Assembly (NCBI GenBank): GCA_002238805.1
Contig: MPNB01000008.1
Span: 1 to 64,000 of the forward strand
From: Rhodothermaceae bacterium bin80
Lineage (GTDB): Bacteria > Bacteroidota > Rhodothermia > Rhodothermales > Bin80
Length of the DNA stretch: 64,000 bases
Direction: 5' to 3'
Below, in pieces: positions 4,477 to 16,823 of the stretch. Within the stretch, counting starts at the first letter, position 1; each line of letters starts with the position of its first letter. The notes under the pieces are model-generated. The model did no database searches, was not told the DNA's origin, and was given only the letters and a program-made list of their open reading frames with translations. Made by a program: the position numbers and the translations under genes.

Positions 4477-5504
4477 TATGGAATTCCTGGCAAGAAACAC
4501 CTTGGAATGGGAAGATCTGTAACCGTTCGCAGGCCCGGTGACGCGTTTATCACCTGAGGTATTGCATTTACTAAAGCTCCCACAGTAGCAGTATCTCCAA
4601 AAATTCCGCCTTGGACCACAAGGTCAATGGGAGGGTCTCCATCCACTACTACTCGGTCCACTGGGTCGTTCGCGCCTACGTACATTCTCAAGTCTAGGGA
4701 TACAGCAATACGTCCATCCAAATAGGCCTCTGCAGTATGCTTGATTCCAGCTACCCTGTCGGGGGGTACAGTCAGGTAAGGGGTTTTTACTTCGGATTCA
4801 GCAACAACAGGTTCCAATGACTCGGACATCTTTTTGATTGGCCAGCCAAGACCGTGCATAACCAACCTGAGGGACTCGACCAGCCCAACATGCCCGAGGC
4901 CGCCTTGCTCGCGCCGCTCGTTAAATTCTTCTACCGTTATTCCCGCACCTATTTTACGCTGAAGCGGCAAACGTCTCAGACTGGCATCCACTCGACGCCT
5001 AACGGCAACGGATCGAACACTTGTACAGACGCCTGTGGCAACAAGAGCAAGCACATCCATGGCATATCCGGGATTAACACCCGTACCGAGGATTGTTACT
5101 CCATATTTCCTGGCTAGGGTATCCAGATTATTTGCAATGCTTGGATGCCTGTCAAAAGGGTAGGGCAGTTCTTCCGTACTGGAAATAACTGATACTCCTG
5201 CGCGAATACATTGCGTCAACTGTCCTTCAACTTGAGGCAAAAAAGAGCTTGTCGTGTGAATGACGAGGTCCGGCTGCGCCTCAGCGAGGACCTTCTCGGC
5301 GTTCGAGGAGATCACTACATCAGAGGAAGTCCCCACTACTTCGCCTACCGTCTTGTTGGCCTTTGCAGGATCAATATCAATGGCCCCAACCAGCTCTAGC
5401 CTCCCGCTCCCTGCTTTTTCAAGTATCAACTTAGCCGCCCCTTTTCCGATTGGGCCCAGTCCATACTGAACTATTCGGATCGGGGTGTCTTTATTGGCCA
5501 TCAT
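4455..5504 (-). CDS. NAD(P)-binding oxidoreductase, 2,4-diaminopentanoate dehydrogenase / DapB-like family
   Basis: 349 aa. The N-terminal Rossmann domain (IRIVQYGLGPIGKGAAKLI, then VGAIDIDPAKA) is typical of dihydrodipicolinate reductase-like and 2,4-diaminopentanoate dehydrogenase-like enzymes. The middle has the group's VIHTTSSFL and GTGVNPGYAMDVL motifs. Such proteins are often labelled dihydrodipicolinate reductase, but the length and C-terminal half fit the diaminopentanoate dehydrogenase group better than true DapB (~250 aa). It lies 2 nt downstream of P5C dehydrogenase, so the two are almost certainly co-transcribed and probably share an amino-acid catabolic route. The real substrate cannot be read from sequence. 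ATG ATG at the start leaves two equivalent initiation codons. Confidence 0.7.
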   Translation of the reverse strand: MMANKDTPIRIVQYGLGPIGKGAAKLILEKAGSGRLELVGAIDIDPAKANKTVGEVVGTSSDVVISSNAEKVLAEAQPDLVIHTTSSFLPQVEGQLTQCIRAGVSVISSTEELPYPFDRHPSIANNLDTLARKYGVTILGTGVNPGYAMDVLALVATGVCTSVRSVAVRRRVDASLRRLPLQRKIGAGITVEEFNERREQGGLGHVGLVESLRLVMHGLGWPIKKMSESLEPVVAESEVKTPYLTVPPDRVAGIKHTAEAYLDGRIAVSLDLRMYVGANDPVDRVVVDGDPPIDLVVQGGIFGDTATVGALVNAIPQVINASPGLRTVTDLPIPRCFLPGIPYHAPLEL

Positions 5505-8811: not shown

Positions 8812-9262
8812 AAAATTAAACAAACGTTGGGTGTCACTTTCAAAGACATCTCTTGATGTCGCTGCGGCTTATCAATTTCTGCAGACACCCGCAGCAGGCG
8901 GAATTGCATTATTTATAGGTACTACACGACAGTGGACTGGTAGCCGCGAGACCACATTGCTGGTTTACGAGAGTTATGAGCCCATGGCACTGCGGGAGAT
9001 GCACCTGCTGATAGATCTCGCTGTAAGACGCTGGCCGATCAGCCGTGCATGCATCCTTCATCGACTAGGAGAGGTTCCCCTTGCCGAAGCCAGTGTATTG
9101 GTTGGAGTGGCGACGCCTCACCGTCCAGAAGCTTTCGAGGCGTGTCGATTTTTGATTGATCGCCTTAAAGTCCAAATCCCTATATGGAAACAAGAGCACT
9201 TTACCGATGGCCAAGTGCACTGGATCGAAGGAAGTGAACCCCCAGAAACTACTGTGACTTGA
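8804..9262 (+). CDS. moaE: Molybdopterin synthase catalytic subunit
   Basis: 152 aa, starting at a GTG inside the end of moaD. MoaE converts cyclic pyranopterin monophosphate to molybdopterin using MoaD thiocarboxylate. Family features are GIALFIGTTR, LVYESYEPMALREM, the ILHRLGEVPLAEASVLVGV core, and the active-site Lys region KVQIPIWKQEHFTDG near the C-terminus. No other cofactor genes lie nearby. The 3' end overlaps the convergent purC end by 14 nt. Confidence 0.93.
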   Translation: MAEKLNKRWVSLSKTSLDVAAAYQFLQTPAAGGIALFIGTTRQWTGSRETTLLVYESYEPMALREMHLLIDLAVRRWPISRACILHRLGEVPLAEASVLVGVATPHRPEAFEACRFLIDRLKVQIPIWKQEHFTDGQVHWIEGSEPPETTVT

Positions 9263-11246
9263 GCGCTTCTCGGATGCGACTTTCTGGATCGGGATGCGTG
9301 TCGGGTACGAATGCCTTGCCGGTCACTTTTTCGAACAGCTCAATGTAGCGAGCAGCTACCTGAATGCGGACTTCGTCTGACAAGTCGGGGAGTACTTGCC
9401 CATCTTTGCCTTGAAAACCTCTCTCCATTAACCACTCACGTACAAATTCTTTCGACAGCTGTTGTTGAGGCTCACCCTCTCGGAGAAGATCTTCATATGA
9501 TTCAAGGTAGAAGTAACGCGAAGAATCCGGTGTATGGACTTCGTCAATAAGAACCCATTCGCCATCCGGAGTTTTTCCGAATTCGTACTTCGTATCAACA
9601 AGGATTAGTCCCTGGTCTGCGGCGAGCTCCGTACCCCGTTGAAACAGGGCCAGAGAAACTTGCTCAAGTCGATCGAAAGTATCTGCCTCAATGAGACCCT
9701 GTTCAATAGCGGCTTCCCGGCTGATGTCTTCATCATGACCGACTTGTGCCTTTGTCGTAGGAGTGAGAATTGGTTTGGGCAACCGATCATTTTCGCTCAA
9801 CCCATCAGGTAACGACTTTCCGCATAGCGTACGCTTGCCTGTACGGTATGTCCGCCATGCATGCCCTACCAGATATCCCCGAACTACGAATTCGAGCTTT
9901 CCAGGCTCACATTTCTGCGCAATAGTAACATTGGAATCCGGCACACTCAAAATTTGATTCGGAATGATATCACTGGTTGCCTCAAAAAAATAGGCGGCCA
10001 ATTGATTGAGTACTTGACCTTTGAATGGGATGGTTTGAGGAAGTACGTGATCAAAGGCGGAAATCCGGTCTGTCGTCACCATGATCAGTCGATCCCCCTG
10101 GTCATACGTATCCCGCACTTTTCCTCGGTACTTTTTGCCCAGATCTGAAAACTCAGTTCCGGTCAATGTCTTGTCCAACTGGTTTTGAATTGTTTTGATG
10201 TGCATTCTGTTTGTATTTCGGTTATAGTTGCTAGAACGTCGTACACGTAGGTTCGGTACGATTTTATGGTCTATACCTATTGTGTCTGCGGGATTATTCT
10301 GACGGTAAAGCAAGCGTTCAGCCGCTAAGCGGCCGATATGCTCAATGCTCTGGTCAACACTGCTCAATCCAACGTAGTAGCTGGTCTTAACATCATCATA
10401 TCCGACCAAAGCAATATCCTCTGGCACACGTTTACCTGCGTCTCGAATTGCCTTCCATGCACCAACCGCCTGCACATCACTACTTGCCAAAACCGCTGAT
10501 ATTGCCGGGGTTACCTGCAGGAGTTGCTGCATTGCTTCGAATCCATGTTCCTCACTAAACCCAGCATGCTTGACGTTGGTACCGCTCTGGATGAGGTCAC
10601 TGTCGAATTTGACTCCATACTTTTTGAGTGCTGCCTTGTAGCCTCGAATACGTTGAAGCTGTACATAACCATCTGTGTAGGCACGGATTAGCCCGATACG
10701 CCGATGTCCCCGGAACAACAAGTGTTCTGTGGCTTCCCTTGCCCCAATAGCATTATCCCAGTAGAAGCAGTCAAAGTCTGTATGATGATTGCCTATAAGT
10801 ACAACTGGTGCACTGAACGCTTTCAGCTCTTTGGCCAAAAGAGCCGAGACCGGTATCCCAGCCAAGATTAAGCCGTCTACCTTACCTCCCTTCAATTTAC
10901 TGCGCAAACGTGCCAGCGGATCAGTGCTCCCCAAATCAAAGAGCAACAGATCCCGTTCTTCATCTGCAGCAGTAAAAATTGCTCGAAGACCTTTGAGGAG
11001 CGAATTGTGGAAAGGAGTTGTAATCGTGGGCGTTGCTATTGCAATCAGACTTGACCCTGGTTGGGCTAAGGCCTTGGCTACGCGGTTAGGACGATACTCG
11101 AGTTCGTCAATAACATTAAGAACATGTTCACGAGTATGTTCCGCCACATCAGGAGATTCGTTTAGTACACGAGACACGGTCGAAATCGCTACCCCTGCCT
11201 CATTGGCAACCTCGTAGATTGTGACGTACGGTTTGGGACGTGGCAT
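9249..11246 (-). CDS. purC: LacI-type transcription regulator fused in frame to SAICAR synthetase (PurC)
   Basis: 665 aa in one open frame. Residues 1-~347 are a complete LacI/GalR regulator: helix-turn-helix (VTIYEVANEAGVAISTVSRV), hinge (NRVAKALAQ) and a periplasmic-binding-protein-like effector domain (VDGLILAG, GHRRIGLI, VGYDDV). Residues ~348-665 are a complete SAICAR synthetase: KYRGKVRDTYD, TTDRISAFDHVLP, GKLEFVVRGYLVGHAW, DTKYEFG, DEVHTPDSSRYF. PurC couples CAIR and aspartate using ATP in purine synthesis. No stop separates the parts. Translation could restart at the internal ATG at 10205 (A-rich AATACAAACAGA upstream, no Shine-Dalgarno), giving a 318-aa PurC. LacI-family PurR controls purine genes in enterobacteria, but here the regulator could equally serve the divergent sugar-type ATPase. 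Confidence is high for both domains and moderate that a single polypeptide is made. Confidence 0.85.
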   Translation of the reverse strand: MPRPKPYVTIYEVANEAGVAISTVSRVLNESPDVAEHTREHVLNVIDELEYRPNRVAKALAQPGSSLIAIATPTITTPFHNSLLKGLRAIFTAADEERDLLLFDLGSTDPLARLRSKLKGGKVDGLILAGIPVSALLAKELKAFSAPVVLIGNHHTDFDCFYWDNAIGAREATEHLLFRGHRRIGLIRAYTDGYVQLQRIRGYKAALKKYGVKFDSDLIQSGTNVKHAGFSEEHGFEAMQQLLQVTPAISAVLASSDVQAVGAWKAIRDAGKRVPEDIALVGYDDVKTSYYVGLSSVDQSIEHIGRLAAERLLYRQNNPADTIGIDHKIVPNLRVRRSSNYNRNTNRMHIKTIQNQLDKTLTGTEFSDLGKKYRGKVRDTYDQGDRLIMVTTDRISAFDHVLPQTIPFKGQVLNQLAAYFFEATSDIIPNQILSVPDSNVTIAQKCEPGKLEFVVRGYLVGHAWRTYRTGKRTLCGKSLPDGLSENDRLPKPILTPTTKAQVGHDEDISREAAIEQGLIEADTFDRLEQVSLALFQRGTELAADQGLILVDTKYEFGKTPDGEWVLIDEVHTPDSSRYFYLESYEDLLREGEPQQQLSKEFVREWLMERGFQGKDGQVLPDLSDEVRIQVAARYIELFEKVTGKAFVPDTHPDPESRIREALKSQ

Positions 11247-12754: not shown

Positions 12755-13630
12755 TCAGATGTTAAGGTATTTGGAGGAGGAGTCGTTAGGGCGCGCGTGG
12801 GTATACTTGCTGGTAGTTGTGAGGGATCGATGACCCAAAGACTCCTGAACCAAGTGGACAGGGGCCCCATGATCAAGGGCGTGCGATGCGTGTGCATGGC
12901 GCAGCCAGTGTGGTGATACATTTTTATCAAACCCAGCCGCCCTTGCTGCATCCCTAACAATACGCCAAATCTGCTGCCTGGATAGTGGGCCCCCTTTACG
13001 TGATCGGAAAACAGGCTGGTTGGGTTCATTAAGCTCAGACTTAGACTTCAATTCCATCAACTCCTTCCAGACTGACGCAGGGAGCAGCAGCGTACGCATC
13101 TTATTACCCTTACCAAGCAAAGAAATTTGACCCTGCTGGTCTCCTCGTGGAATCAAAGCACCCCAGTATACGCTCGCCAATTCAGACACACGCGCACCGG
13201 ACGCGTAGAAAAGCTTGAGCAATACACGGTTTCGTAGTGTGCGGGCCTGACTCACAATTGCTATTATATCTTCCTCCAACAATATGCGTTCAGCCAATTT
13301 GTCGGGGATGCTCGGTAGTGTAATAGCCGCTCCTACATTAAATTGCAAATAACCGATCTTGTGTCCAAAGCTGAACAAGCTCTTGACTGCCGCCAGTTTT
13401 CGGGCTTGTGTTGCAGGCAAAGCACCTTGTTTTTTTAGGTGATCCGCCCAGTCCCAGAAATGCTGCATCTTGATCTCACTCAGCGGCAAATCTACAAAGT
13501 CTACAAATTGCTCTACGTCACGCGTATAAGCCTCTTGAGAGTGCTGACTTTTTCCTCGCAACCACAAGTTGATAAGATGCAAGTCATCATTTGCTTGGCT
13601 GGAACGCGGAGAATTAATTGGCACAAGCAT
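12755..13630 (-). CDS. Tyrosine recombinase/integrase, XerC/XerD-like
   Basis: 291 aa. The N-terminal SAM-like DNA-binding domain (SQHSQEAYTRDVEQFVDFV) is followed by a catalytic domain with all expected residues: Arg in GARVSEL, Lys in GKGNKMRTLLL, His-x-x-Arg in SPHWLRHAHASHA, His in ESLGHRS, and nucleophilic Tyr in TSKYTHA. Size and domain layout are those of XerC/D and of integrases of small mobile elements. It stands alone, transcribed toward the ABC ATPase, next to an unknown gene and a repeat array, which favours an element-borne enzyme. A chromosomal dimer-resolution role cannot be excluded. Confidence 0.88.
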   Translation of the reverse strand: MLVPINSPRSSQANDDLHLINLWLRGKSQHSQEAYTRDVEQFVDFVDLPLSEIKMQHFWDWADHLKKQGALPATQARKLAAVKSLFSFGHKIGYLQFNVGAAITLPSIPDKLAERILLEEDIIAIVSQARTLRNRVLLKLFYASGARVSELASVYWGALIPRGDQQGQISLLGKGNKMRTLLLPASVWKELMELKSKSELNEPNQPVFRSRKGGPLSRQQIWRIVRDAARAAGFDKNVSPHWLRHAHASHALDHGAPVHLVQESLGHRSLTTTSKYTHARPNDSSSKYLNI

Positions 13631-14069: not shown

Positions 14070-14810
14070 ATGAGAAAGCCACTCAAGCCTATCAAACCAC
14101 TCCTCTCGCAAGCGGAGCAGCTTGTGAACGCCAGTAGGAGGAAAGACTATAAAAGCACTGCGCAACAGAAGAAGAGAGAGGAAGCCAAGCACCAAGCAGA
14201 ATTTGAGGAAATGCTGCGCCAAGCTGGGACAATACTCGTCATGGTTAAGCCTTATTCCATGGTACTCCGTGAAGCGGGGCCTGAAGTGCCAGTACCCGAG
14301 GACATGCCGCGGATTGTGGAGAAGGTCAAAGTGTATATTTCCATTCTCTCCACGCGGAGTCGACTAGGCATTTTTGCAGATCATGATACATTATTGGCAG
14401 ATGCGAAGACAGAAATAGAACGTGTTACAAGGGCCCACGAACTTCTGTGTCAAGCGACAGAAGCCGTAGAGGAGTCTCAAAGAATCGCACTTCGGGCCTT
14501 GCCGGGAAAAACAGGATTCGCTCAGCTCATGGCCGAATGTGGAGGAACAGGGAAAGAATTCTGGCATCCTACTGATGCAAACGAAAAGCTGATCAATGCC
14601 ATACAGGCTATGGACGCCAAGGGCGAGCAAGTCCCAGAGGAACTTCGGCGAGCATGTAATGATTCGACAGAACATATTGGAACATTCTTGCTCGCCCTGA
14701 CCACCTACTATACTACCATCACAGAGGCTTACAGGCATTTAGACGGAGGAGCAGCTCTCGCACAAATCAAAGCACTGTTAGCCATTGCTTCCTATGGCAG
14801 ACCAGATTAA
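14070..14810 (+). CDS. Hypothetical protein, mostly helical, 246 aa
   Basis: Not recognised. The N-terminus is strongly basic (RKPLKPIKPLL, then RRKDYKSTAQQKKREE). The rest is predicted by eye to be alpha-helical, with acidic and Ala/Leu-rich segments. No signal peptide or membrane segment is evident. The open frame is longer than chance and codon use looks like the neighbours', so it is probably a real gene. It lies between the tyrosine recombinase and the 20-bp repeat block, suggesting it belongs to the same acquired island. The basic N-terminus might bind nucleic acid, which is speculation. Confidence 0.6.
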   Translation: MRKPLKPIKPLLSQAEQLVNASRRKDYKSTAQQKKREEAKHQAEFEEMLRQAGTILVMVKPYSMVLREAGPEVPVPEDMPRIVEKVKVYISILSTRSRLGIFADHDTLLADAKTEIERVTRAHELLCQATEAVEESQRIALRALPGKTGFAQLMAECGGTGKEFWHPTDANEKLINAIQAMDAKGEQVPEELRRACNDSTEHIGTFLLALTTYYTTITEAYRHLDGGAALAQIKALLAIASYGRPD

Positions 14811-14970: not shown

Positions 14971-15100
14971 GGTGAGGCGAGTCATGCTCAGGTGAGGCGA
15001 GTCATGCTCAGGTGAGGCGAGTCATGCTCAGGTGAGGCGAGTCATGCTCAGGTGAGGCGAGTCATGCTCAGGTGAGGCGAGTCATGCTCAGGTGAGGCGA
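14971..15100. repeat. Iteron-like tandem repeat, 20-bp unit, 6.5 perfect copies
   Basis: The unit GGTGAGGCGAGTCATGCTCA is repeated without a mismatch: seven copies of the first half (14971, 14991 ... 15091) and six of the second. Each junction contains the small dyad CTCA-GG-TGAG. Copies are contiguous, so it is not a CRISPR. It sits 14 nt beyond the stop of the first DUF1640-like gene. Confidence 0.95.
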
Positions 15101-15114
15101 GGAATCGCTTCGTT

Positions 15115-15444
15115 TTAGCTAGGAAATAAGCGCAACGCGGCGAACAGGATCCCCATGCCACTGAAAAACGTCACAGGCATCCAACGCACAAGTCGAGTTT
15201 CGAGAGAACTTATTTTGGTATGCATGTCGCCGCGCAGGTTACTTTCCATGGCATTCATGTCGCCGCGCAACTCACTTATTTTACCGCGCACAGTTTGGAT
15301 TTGGCTAGTCACGAAATCCTTGGTCGCGAGATCCTGTTGTTGTCTTTCGGCGACATCCGCAAAGACATTTGTAAGGGCCTCAGCTTGTTGGTCATCAAAT
15401 CCTGAACTGGAGAGCTTGTGAGCAATTGCAAGAGTGTTTATCAT
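15115..15444 (-). CDS. DUF1640-like coiled-coil membrane protein, copy 1 (short form)
   Basis: 109 aa. The N-terminal helix segment (FDDQQAEALTNVFADVAERQ) and DLATKDFVTSQIQTVRG match the DUF1640/CCDC90-like pattern. A coiled-coil stretch with one LRGDMNAMESN hendecad, then LRGDMHTKISSLETRLVRW, leads into one C-terminal membrane helix (MPVTFFSGMGILFAALRLF). The function of bacterial members is unknown to me. Upstream are a strong GGAGGT and a 7-codon leader ORF whose TGA overlaps the ATG. This is the last gene of the tandem array in transcription order. Confidence 0.8.
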   Translation of the reverse strand: MINTLAIAHKLSSSGFDDQQAEALTNVFADVAERQQQDLATKDFVTSQIQTVRGKISELRGDMNAMESNLRGDMHTKISSLETRLVRWMPVTFFSGMGILFAALRLFPS

Positions 15445-15521
15445 GGCTTCACAAAAGAAAGCACTTGTTACCTCCGTGCAGGTCTACGTTCGTCCAGAAT
15501 TATTGGTTTCCCGCTTCCTTC

Positions 15522-16079
15522 TTAGCTAGGAAATAAGCGCAACGCGGCGAACAGGATCCCCAGGCCACTGAAAAACGTCACAAGCATCCAACGCACAAGT
15601 CGAGCTTCGAGAGAACTTATTTTGGTATTCATGTCGCCGCGCAACTCACCTATTTCGCCGCGCAGGTTACTTCCCATGGTATTCATGTCGCCGCGCAGGT
15701 TACTTTCCATGGTATTCATGTCGCCGCGCAGGTTACTTCCCATGGTATTCATGTCGCCGCGCAGGTTACTTTCCATGGTATTCATGTCGCCGCGCAACTC
15801 ACTTATGTCGCCGCGCAGGTTACTTTCCATGGTATTCATGTCGCCGCGCAACTCACTTATGTCGCCGCGCAGGTTAATTTCCATGGCATTCATGTCGCCG
15901 CGCAACTCACCTATGTCGCCGCGCACAGTTTGGATTTGGCTAGTCACGAAATCCTTGGTCGCGAGATCCTGTTGTTGTCTTTCGGCGACATCCGCAAAGA
16001 CATTTGTAAGGGCCTCAGCTTGTTGGTCGTCAAATCCTGAACTGGAGAGCCTGTGAGCAATTGCAAGAGTGTTTATCAT
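15522..16079 (-). CDS. DUF1640-like coiled-coil membrane protein, copy 2 (expanded form)
   Basis: 185 aa. The N-terminus and C-terminal membrane helix are almost identical to those of the neighbouring copies. The central coiled coil is expanded: five 11-residue units of the LRGDMNTMESN type after a variant LRGDMNAMEIN, interleaved with 7-residue units of the LRGDISE type. At DNA level these are near-identical 33-bp and 21-bp repeats between about 15630 and 15920. Heptads and hendecads are both compatible with a continuous coiled coil. The upstream spacer resembles those of copies 1 and 3, but the leader start codon is changed from GTG to GTA and one base is inserted. Confidence 0.82.
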   Translation of the reverse strand: MINTLAIAHRLSSSGFDDQQAEALTNVFADVAERQQQDLATKDFVTSQIQTVRGDIGELRGDMNAMEINLRGDISELRGDMNTMESNLRGDISELRGDMNTMESNLRGDMNTMGSNLRGDMNTMESNLRGDMNTMGSNLRGEIGELRGDMNTKISSLEARLVRWMLVTFFSGLGILFAALRLFPS

Positions 16080-16156
16080 GGCTTCACAAACAGAAAGTAC
16101 TTGTTACCTCCGTGCAGTTCTACGTTCGTCCAGAATTATTGGTTTCCCGCTTCCTT

Positions 16157-16540
16157 TTAGCTAGGAAATAAGCGCAACGCGGCGAACAGGATCCCCAGGC
16201 CACTGAAAAACGTCACAAGCATCCAACGCACAAGTCGAGCTTCGAGAGAACTTATTTTGGTATTCATGTCGCCGCGCAACTCACCTATTTCGCCGCGCAG
16301 GTTACTTTCCATGGTATTCATGTCGCCGCGCAGGTTACTTTCCATGGTATTCATGTCGCCGCGCAACTCACTTATTTCGCCGCGCACAGTTTGGATTTGG
16401 CTAGTCACGAAATCCTTGGTCGCGAGATCCTGTTGTTGTCTTTCGGCGACATCCGCAAAGACATTTGTAAGGGCCTCAGCTTGTTGGTCGTCAAATCCTG
16501 AACCGGAGAGCTTGTGAGCAATCGCAAGAGTGTTTATCAT
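16157..16540 (-). CDS. DUF1640-like coiled-coil membrane protein, copy 3 (intermediate form)
   Basis: 127 aa, with the same N-terminus and membrane tail as copies 1 and 2. Two LRGDMNTMESN hendecads and flanking heptads (ISELRGD, IGELRGD) form the coiled coil. The ATG at 16540 overlaps the TGA of a GTG-started leader ORF (16537-16560, MLSFVKP) that has GGAGGT five bases upstream. Spacers upstream of the three copies (about 77 nt each) are nearly identical, so gene plus spacer is the duplicated unit. Confidence 0.82.
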   Translation of the reverse strand: MINTLAIAHKLSGSGFDDQQAEALTNVFADVAERQQQDLATKDFVTSQIQTVRGEISELRGDMNTMESNLRGDMNTMESNLRGEIGELRGDMNTKISSLEARLVRWMLVTFFSGLGILFAALRLFPS

Positions 16541-16560
16541 GGCTTCACAAAAGAAAGCAC
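16537..16560 (-). CDS. Seven-residue leader ORF coupled to the DUF1640-like gene
   Basis: GTG-started MLSFVKP, preceded by GGAGGT (complement of 16566-16571) at 5-nt spacing, a rare strong Shine-Dalgarno in this window. Its TGA overlaps the ATG of the main gene (ATGA). The same arrangement precedes copy 1 (15441-15464). Copy 2 has lost it. Confidence 0.4.
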   Translation of the reverse strand: MLSFVKP

Positions 16561-16579
16561 TTGTTACCTCCGTGCAGTT

Positions 16580-16786
16580 CTACGTTCGTCCAGAATTATT
16601 GGTTTCCCGCTTCCTTTTAGCCAGAATTAAGCATATCACAGTAAGAACGATCCTCGTGCCACCGAAAACCGCCTCAATAATCCAACCCAGGGGGCGGGAG
16701 CATGACTCGGGCAGATTTCCGGGATTACTGGATTCAGGGGCCAGAACACCGACTGCGCTCAACAAAACCGTATTTACCATTCCCAA
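16580..16786 (-). pseudogene. Degenerate fourth DUF1640-like copy (membrane-tail fragment)
   Basis: The C-terminal DNA aligns base by base with the membrane-helix end of copies 1-3: WIIEAVFGGTRIVLTVICLIL here against RWMLVTFFSGLGILFAALRLF. A single-base loss near the normal stop makes the frame run on into the shared spacer (AKRKRETNNSGRT). The N-terminal half shows no similarity to the paralogues. Best read as a diverged, truncated relative rather than a working gene. Confidence 0.5.
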
Positions 16787-16823
16787 TGTAACATAATGAT
16801 AATTATGTTACATTGGAAATGGT
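16776..16823. repeat. Long near-perfect palindrome (22-bp arms, 4-nt loop)
   Basis: The inner arms CCAATGTAACATAAT and ATTATGTTACATTGG (16783-16797 and 16802-16816) are perfect around a GATA loop. After one mismatch, six further base pairs (ACCATT/AATGGT) extend each arm. It lies between the DUF1640 array and the rhodanese gene. No T-run follows on either side, so a simple terminator is unlikely. An operator, or the scar or end of a mobile element, are options. Confidence 0.85.

Follow-up and report, generated by a model that had tools for sequence, protein, structure and literature searches.

We found that the window, the 64,000-nucleotide stretch of DNA that was analysed, carries an array of three CCDC90-like genes (Table 1), and we give a probability of about 0.5 to the reading that they belong to a lineage-specific, recently duplicated set in which the stalk acts as a length-tunable spacer at the inner membrane, facing the cytoplasm. 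Each protein would consist of a head, an ATK β-layer neck, a parallel coiled-coil stalk and a C-terminal inner-membrane anchor, with the head and the stalk in the cytoplasm. The stalk length would shift via slippage or unequal crossing-over among units of 21, 33 and 54 bp, and the gene number via tandem duplication of the leader-plus-gene unit; only phase-keeping lengths (15+7a+11b residues) were observed. The most likely role, that of a spacer, would set one conserved head at differing heights above the membrane, and an ECF-type sigma factor would probably activate the copies jointly.

Table 1. Positions in the window of the array and of the features around it.
Feature	Position	Strand	Basis or remark
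Downstream block common to the C93 paralogue (90%), weaker in C120 and C152	14822..15114	-	Sequence similarity
Perfect 20-bp tandem array, 6.6 copies	14971..15101	.	One copy at the C93 paralogue
Gene 1, CCDC90-like protein	15115..15444	-	109 aa; ATK neck to membrane helix, 44 residues
Promoter-like motif GAAACC-N17-GTA, gene 1	15485..15510	-	Upstream-region comparison
Gene 2, CCDC90-like protein	15522..16079	-	185 aa; neck to membrane helix, 120 residues
Stalk-coding 33-bp and 54-bp (33+21) tandem repeats, gene 2	15655..15925	-	TRF, 97% matches
Promoter-like motif GAAACC-N17-GTA, gene 2	16121..16146	-	Upstream-region comparison
Gene 3, CCDC90-like protein	16157..16540	-	127 aa; neck to membrane helix, 62 residues
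Stalk-coding 33-bp tandem repeats, gene 3	16290..16365	-	TRF, 100% matches
Promoter-like motif GAAACC-N17-GTA, gene 3	16581..16606	-	Upstream-region comparison
Tail remnant of a fourth copy, no recognisable head	16618..16689	-	0/2000 shuffles match the tail score
Putative dif site, 28-bp 11-6-11 palindrome bordering the array	16786..16813	.	Landmark outside the gene family

The open reading frames of the window revealed that genes 1-3 follow one another head to tail, all of them minus-strand genes. At the DNA level, 158-159 of the first 162 nt are identical among the three genes (97.5-98%), as are 76-78 of the last 78 nt, which encode the membrane tail (97-100%). Each gene is preceded by a leader of ~77 bp; the leaders differ by 1-2 substitutions, and the repeat unit of the array comprises the leader and the gene only. 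TRF found 33-bp and 54-bp (33+21) tandem repeats in the array with 97-100% matches, and a separate repeat search agreed, with repeat start spacings of 33 and 21. The 33-bp unit encodes LRGDMNTMESN (11 aa), and the 21-bp unit encodes LRGEISE or LRGEIGE (7 aa). The unit order in the stalk is 7+11+11 in gene 1, 7+11+7+11+7+11+11+11+11+7+11 in gene 2 and 7+11+11+7+11 in gene 3. The first-pass annotation had described three near-identical genes with a common head and membrane tail that differ in their 33-bp and 21-bp units, and the reading frames, identities and TRF results bear this out; a recent duplication, in line with the recent expansion that it proposed, is also supported. It had also proposed a decayed fourth gene, of which one part stood: the tail and stop region was supported against shuffled sequence, while the supposed head at 16701-16790 did not stand out from shuffled sequence (1375 of 2000 shuffles reached its score), so that a whole gene is unsupported. 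The start codon of this supposed gene overlaps the dif-like palindrome.

By profile, motif and architecture, the window proteins belong to the CCDC90-like family. All three genes exceed the Pfam cut-off of 33.5 bits for PF07798 (CCDC90-like, formerly DUF1640), with 40.3, 67.9 and 47.9 bits, in agreement with the earlier description of them as DUF1640-like. In all three proteins, LATKDF forms the β-layer motif before the stalk, and A-T-K is nearly invariant across 21 aligned members. An aliphatic-A-T-K β-layer motif has been described previously (PMC4786415); it ends in D or E, whereas the window proteins have F at that position. A PDB profile search matched CCDC90B (6H9M) with an E-value of 0.06-0.09, which is not significant alone, and this was the only relevant natural relative matched. 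The AlphaFold model of the single chain was a monomer with a head of low confidence, and a fold search with this model gave no significant match, as expected of one long helix. According to Adlakha et al. 2019, as cited in PMC7519068, the CCDC90-like or DUF1640 family spans MCUR1, CCDC90B, yeast Put6/Put7 and prokaryotic members.

As read from the sequence, the proteins begin with MINTLAIAHKL, have no signal peptide and carry a single hydrophobic C-terminal stretch after RLVRW; likewise, no signal peptide was visible as an export signal in any family member. The N-terminal domains of yeast Put6/Put7 face the matrix (PMC7519068), and by analogy with these proteins, we infer coiled-coil trimers that are anchored in the inner membrane with their heads in the cytoplasm. 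Exposure at the surface, which had been considered earlier, was not borne out. A length- or phase-variation system at the surface would agree with a membrane protein family of changing repeat number, as found among surface proteins of other bacteria, but the lack of a signal peptide, the tail anchor, the matrix-facing relatives (PMC7519068), repeat changes that stay in frame, and thus give no on/off switching, and differences that were seen between paralogues or species but not within a strain leave it scarcely credible.

To describe the stalks, we determined how many residues separate the ATK motif from the membrane helix (the neck-to-membrane length) for 46 members, drawn from eight genomes. 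Without exception, these lengths equal 15+7a+11b residues, and the start spacings of the stalk units were 7 (100 cases), 11 (57), 18 (14) and others (4). Among the unit pairs tested, 7 and 11 alone fitted all lengths without also covering most integers. For increments below 60, 29 of 59 integers can be expressed as 7a+11b, and so can all 17 distinct increments seen (p ~6e-6, a guide only, given that the members share ancestry and that the shortest of them supplied the offset of 15). The 7/11 rule therefore holds family-wide, and the earlier proposal that both units keep the coiled-coil phase is upheld. Additionally, a relative on an Acidithiobacillus caldus plasmid has units of 11, 11, 11 and 7 by eye and appears to obey the rule. 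The window stalks have a mean of 3.615-3.625 residues per turn; since this is near the 3.63 of an undistorted helix (PMC4786415), nearly straight rods are expected. With 0.148 nm per residue, the neck-to-membrane heights would be ~6.5 nm for gene 1, 9 nm for gene 3 and 18 nm for gene 2.

We compared the loci of two sister species, G003 and G005, in which the DNA flanking common loci is 92-97% identical; here, as in all of these comparisons, each species is represented by one genome, and all differences are between paralogues or species. The first locus contains three genes in G003 versus one in G005, the second four versus two, and the third three versus two, with the G005 contig ending there. 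At the fourth locus, proteins of 138 aa in G003 and 264 aa in G005 share the same start, and the additional 126 residues equal seven 18-residue units; the fifth locus revealed no change. In the second genus, among single-contig chromosomes, G039 has two genes, with neck-to-membrane stretches of 15 and 22 residues, and G048 has one, with a stretch of 29 residues. Identical counts in all relatives, set beforehand as the refuting observation, are excluded, as the sister-species loci differ in both gene and repeat number. Because the species differences recur in independent genomes, the pattern is independent of any one assembly. An artefact of assembly in copy or repeat number could be suspected from the fragmented source assembly (4.08 Mb in 192 contigs, 94% complete), from several paralogues at contig ends and from the longest exact repeat inside the array, which is 151 bp with counts taken as assembled; however, each array gene has unique substitutions, and the pattern repeats in independent genomes, G039 and G048 among them, so we regard such an artefact as very improbable.

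In the heads of G003 and G005, dN/dS was mostly 0 to 0.4 across tandem and sister-species pairs, with one pair at 0.79, and these low values indicate working genes; the three window copies have too few changes for dN/dS. The main rival explanation is neutral repeat dynamics, in which slippage alters the number of units, selection purges phase-breaking lengths alone and length itself has no function. The near-identical DNA repeats are prone to slippage, close species differ greatly in stalk length, and the non-coding 20-bp array next door has also expanded. Against this, several arrays keep multiple lengths side by side with constrained heads, and one locus has an unchanged length in G003 and G005, although neither point is decisive; we consider neutral dynamics possible but on the unlikely side.

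In a head-profile search of 114 genomes of the order, the family was found in 13, all within two genera: 7 of the 10 genomes of the window's genus and 6 of the second genus. Each of these 13 genomes gave 1 to 16 matches. The Pfam model overlooks many of the members that the head profile finds. The named genomes among the relatives from a scan of a genome collection were all Rhodothermales metagenome assemblies, and none of the tblastn matches was to a Borrelia plasmid. In the window's genome, paralogues lie on at least six other contigs. Those on C93, C120 and C152 match the array over the gene, ~75-80 bp upstream and ~235 bp downstream, after which the similarity ends. A second subfamily comprises those on C145, C97 and C48, which lie in part near an IS1380-type transposase. 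On C120 of the window's genome, G000 (locus L049), a direct repeat of 173 bp (97%) at 2650-2822 and 4494-4666 flanks a paralogue and its neighbouring gene, possibly as the trace of a duplication or insertion. Clustering of neighbours for a conserved partner gene gave only orthologous blocks and the IS1380-type transposase. We rejected a defence system, as the PADLOC matches were weak coiled-coil noise, and a phage origin, as there was no match among phage records and the PHROG matches were mostly to families of unknown function.

Across subfamilies, the upstream regions can no longer be aligned; what they retain is GGAACC or GAAACC, located ~50-70 bp ahead of the start codon and in many cases followed by GTA 15-18 bp further on. 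The first half of this motif is present in 43 of 52 members, compared with 3.6 expected from Markov resampling and 12 of 187 other open reading frames at the same loci; the full, strict motif is present in 27 of 52 members, compared with 0.7 expected and 1 of 187. The strict motif occurs three times in the 64-kb window, once before each array gene. Genome-wide, GGAACC-N16/17-GTA shows no excess in the window's genome (36 versus 85 for the reversed control), and the counts were 66 versus 55 in G003 and 59 versus 44 in G005, so the motif carries information only where it adjoins genes. Its survival alone in otherwise diverged upstream regions argues for function, though shared descent contributes. 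Promoters of ECF sigma factors resemble GGAACC/GAAACC-N15-18-GTA, and the dispersed family copies may form one regulon. In G003, locus L183 (C28:18500-22368) contains five tandem units of ~400 bp without a convincing open reading frame, each carrying GGAACC-N16/17-GTA and, ~100 nt after it, a terminator-like hairpin with a T run. The position of the motif before these hairpin-rich units would fit a promoter, and L183 is possibly an array of small RNAs.

We also observed other stalk families in these genomes. A second paralogous family in the window's genome (L055, L056, L057 and L058 on C128, C70, C103 and C118) starts with an N-terminal membrane helix, continues into a stalk in which LRGGISE (7) and LRSEVRNDISE (11) units vary in number, and ends in a C-terminal head. 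In G003, the membrane-anchored repeat proteins of L184, L185, L186 and L202 contain 11-residue units (ESEARQEKSRK and ESTNIKIDALT) and sit directly downstream of GGAACC-N16/17-GTA. A broader proposal, which we hold to be doubtful, is that several unrelated membrane-anchored families with 7/11 stalks, among them the CCDC90-like family and those described above, some with the ECF-type motif, form a regulon of membrane-tethered rulers; if true, such families would adjust inner-membrane distances through gain or loss of units.

The array is flanked by the gene of a Xer recombinase (12755-13630) and an open reading frame of unknown type on one side and by a rhodanese-miaA pair on the other. The open reading frame at 14070-14810 gave no family match in Pfam, PADLOC, NCBIfam or PHROG. 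The order of the rhodanese gene, miaA and the next gene is kept within the genus, and the array was absent from the sequence upstream of the rhodanese gene in all nine sister species, some of whose contigs end within a few kb. The nearly perfect palindrome ATGTAACATAA-TGATAA-TTATGTTACAT is taken as a putative dif site from its 11-6-11 arms and the nearby Xer gene. All 14 family genomes have such a palindrome, which is single in 13; G009 has a second match with 3 mismatches. G000 and the single-contig G011 have only one strong Xer homologue, beside the putative dif site, consistent with a Xer system that uses a single recombinase. As each genome has essentially one dif-like site and the remaining family members are located away from it, the site marks a place and not a mechanism, and an origin from an integron or dif module was rejected. 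The 12-mer CGAGTCATGCTC of the 20-bp array recurs inverted at 16698-16709, within the fourth-copy remnant. Elsewhere in the window (9249-11246, minus strand), a single open reading frame, assigned by eye, runs from a LacI-type regulator into sequence resembling SAICAR synthetase (PurC); a fusion or a lost stop codon may underlie it.

CCDC90-like proteins range from bacteria to human mitochondria. In this lineage, up to ~16 copies per genome, phase-keeping steps and sister-species differences provide a natural length series for testing the ruler idea, and the common promoter-like motif a first handle on the timing of production. A compatible proposal is that paralogues act as subunits of mixed oligomers in which their lengths stagger the heads within one complex. 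Put6/Put7 is a hetero-oligomer of ~720 kDa (PMC7519068), and the heads, necks and anchors of the array are nearly identical; however, stalks of unequal length in one oligomer would require looped-out units, and many species have single-copy loci, so we judge mixed oligomers improbable.

New here are the 7/11 length rule, the locus differences between sister species, the upstream motif and the array beside a putative dif site. The window proteins share with PF07798 members an architecture of head, ATK β-layer neck, predicted coiled-coil stalk and C-terminal membrane anchor. They differ from the known members in reaching ~16 copies per genome, in their tandem arrays, in their 15+7a+11b stalks and in the common promoter-like motif. 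The Bdr proteins of Borrelia are likewise a paralogous family with in-frame repeats of changing number, the repeats of bdrT being about 9 versus 6 between strains (PMC3303823); this likeness is one of description, and the Bdr genes are borne on plasmids or prophages of a spirochaete. The stalks of trimeric autotransporter adhesins similarly join seven- and eleven-residue periodicities in phase and contain β-layers (PMC4786415), but those adhesins are surface proteins with a signal peptide and an outer-membrane anchor.
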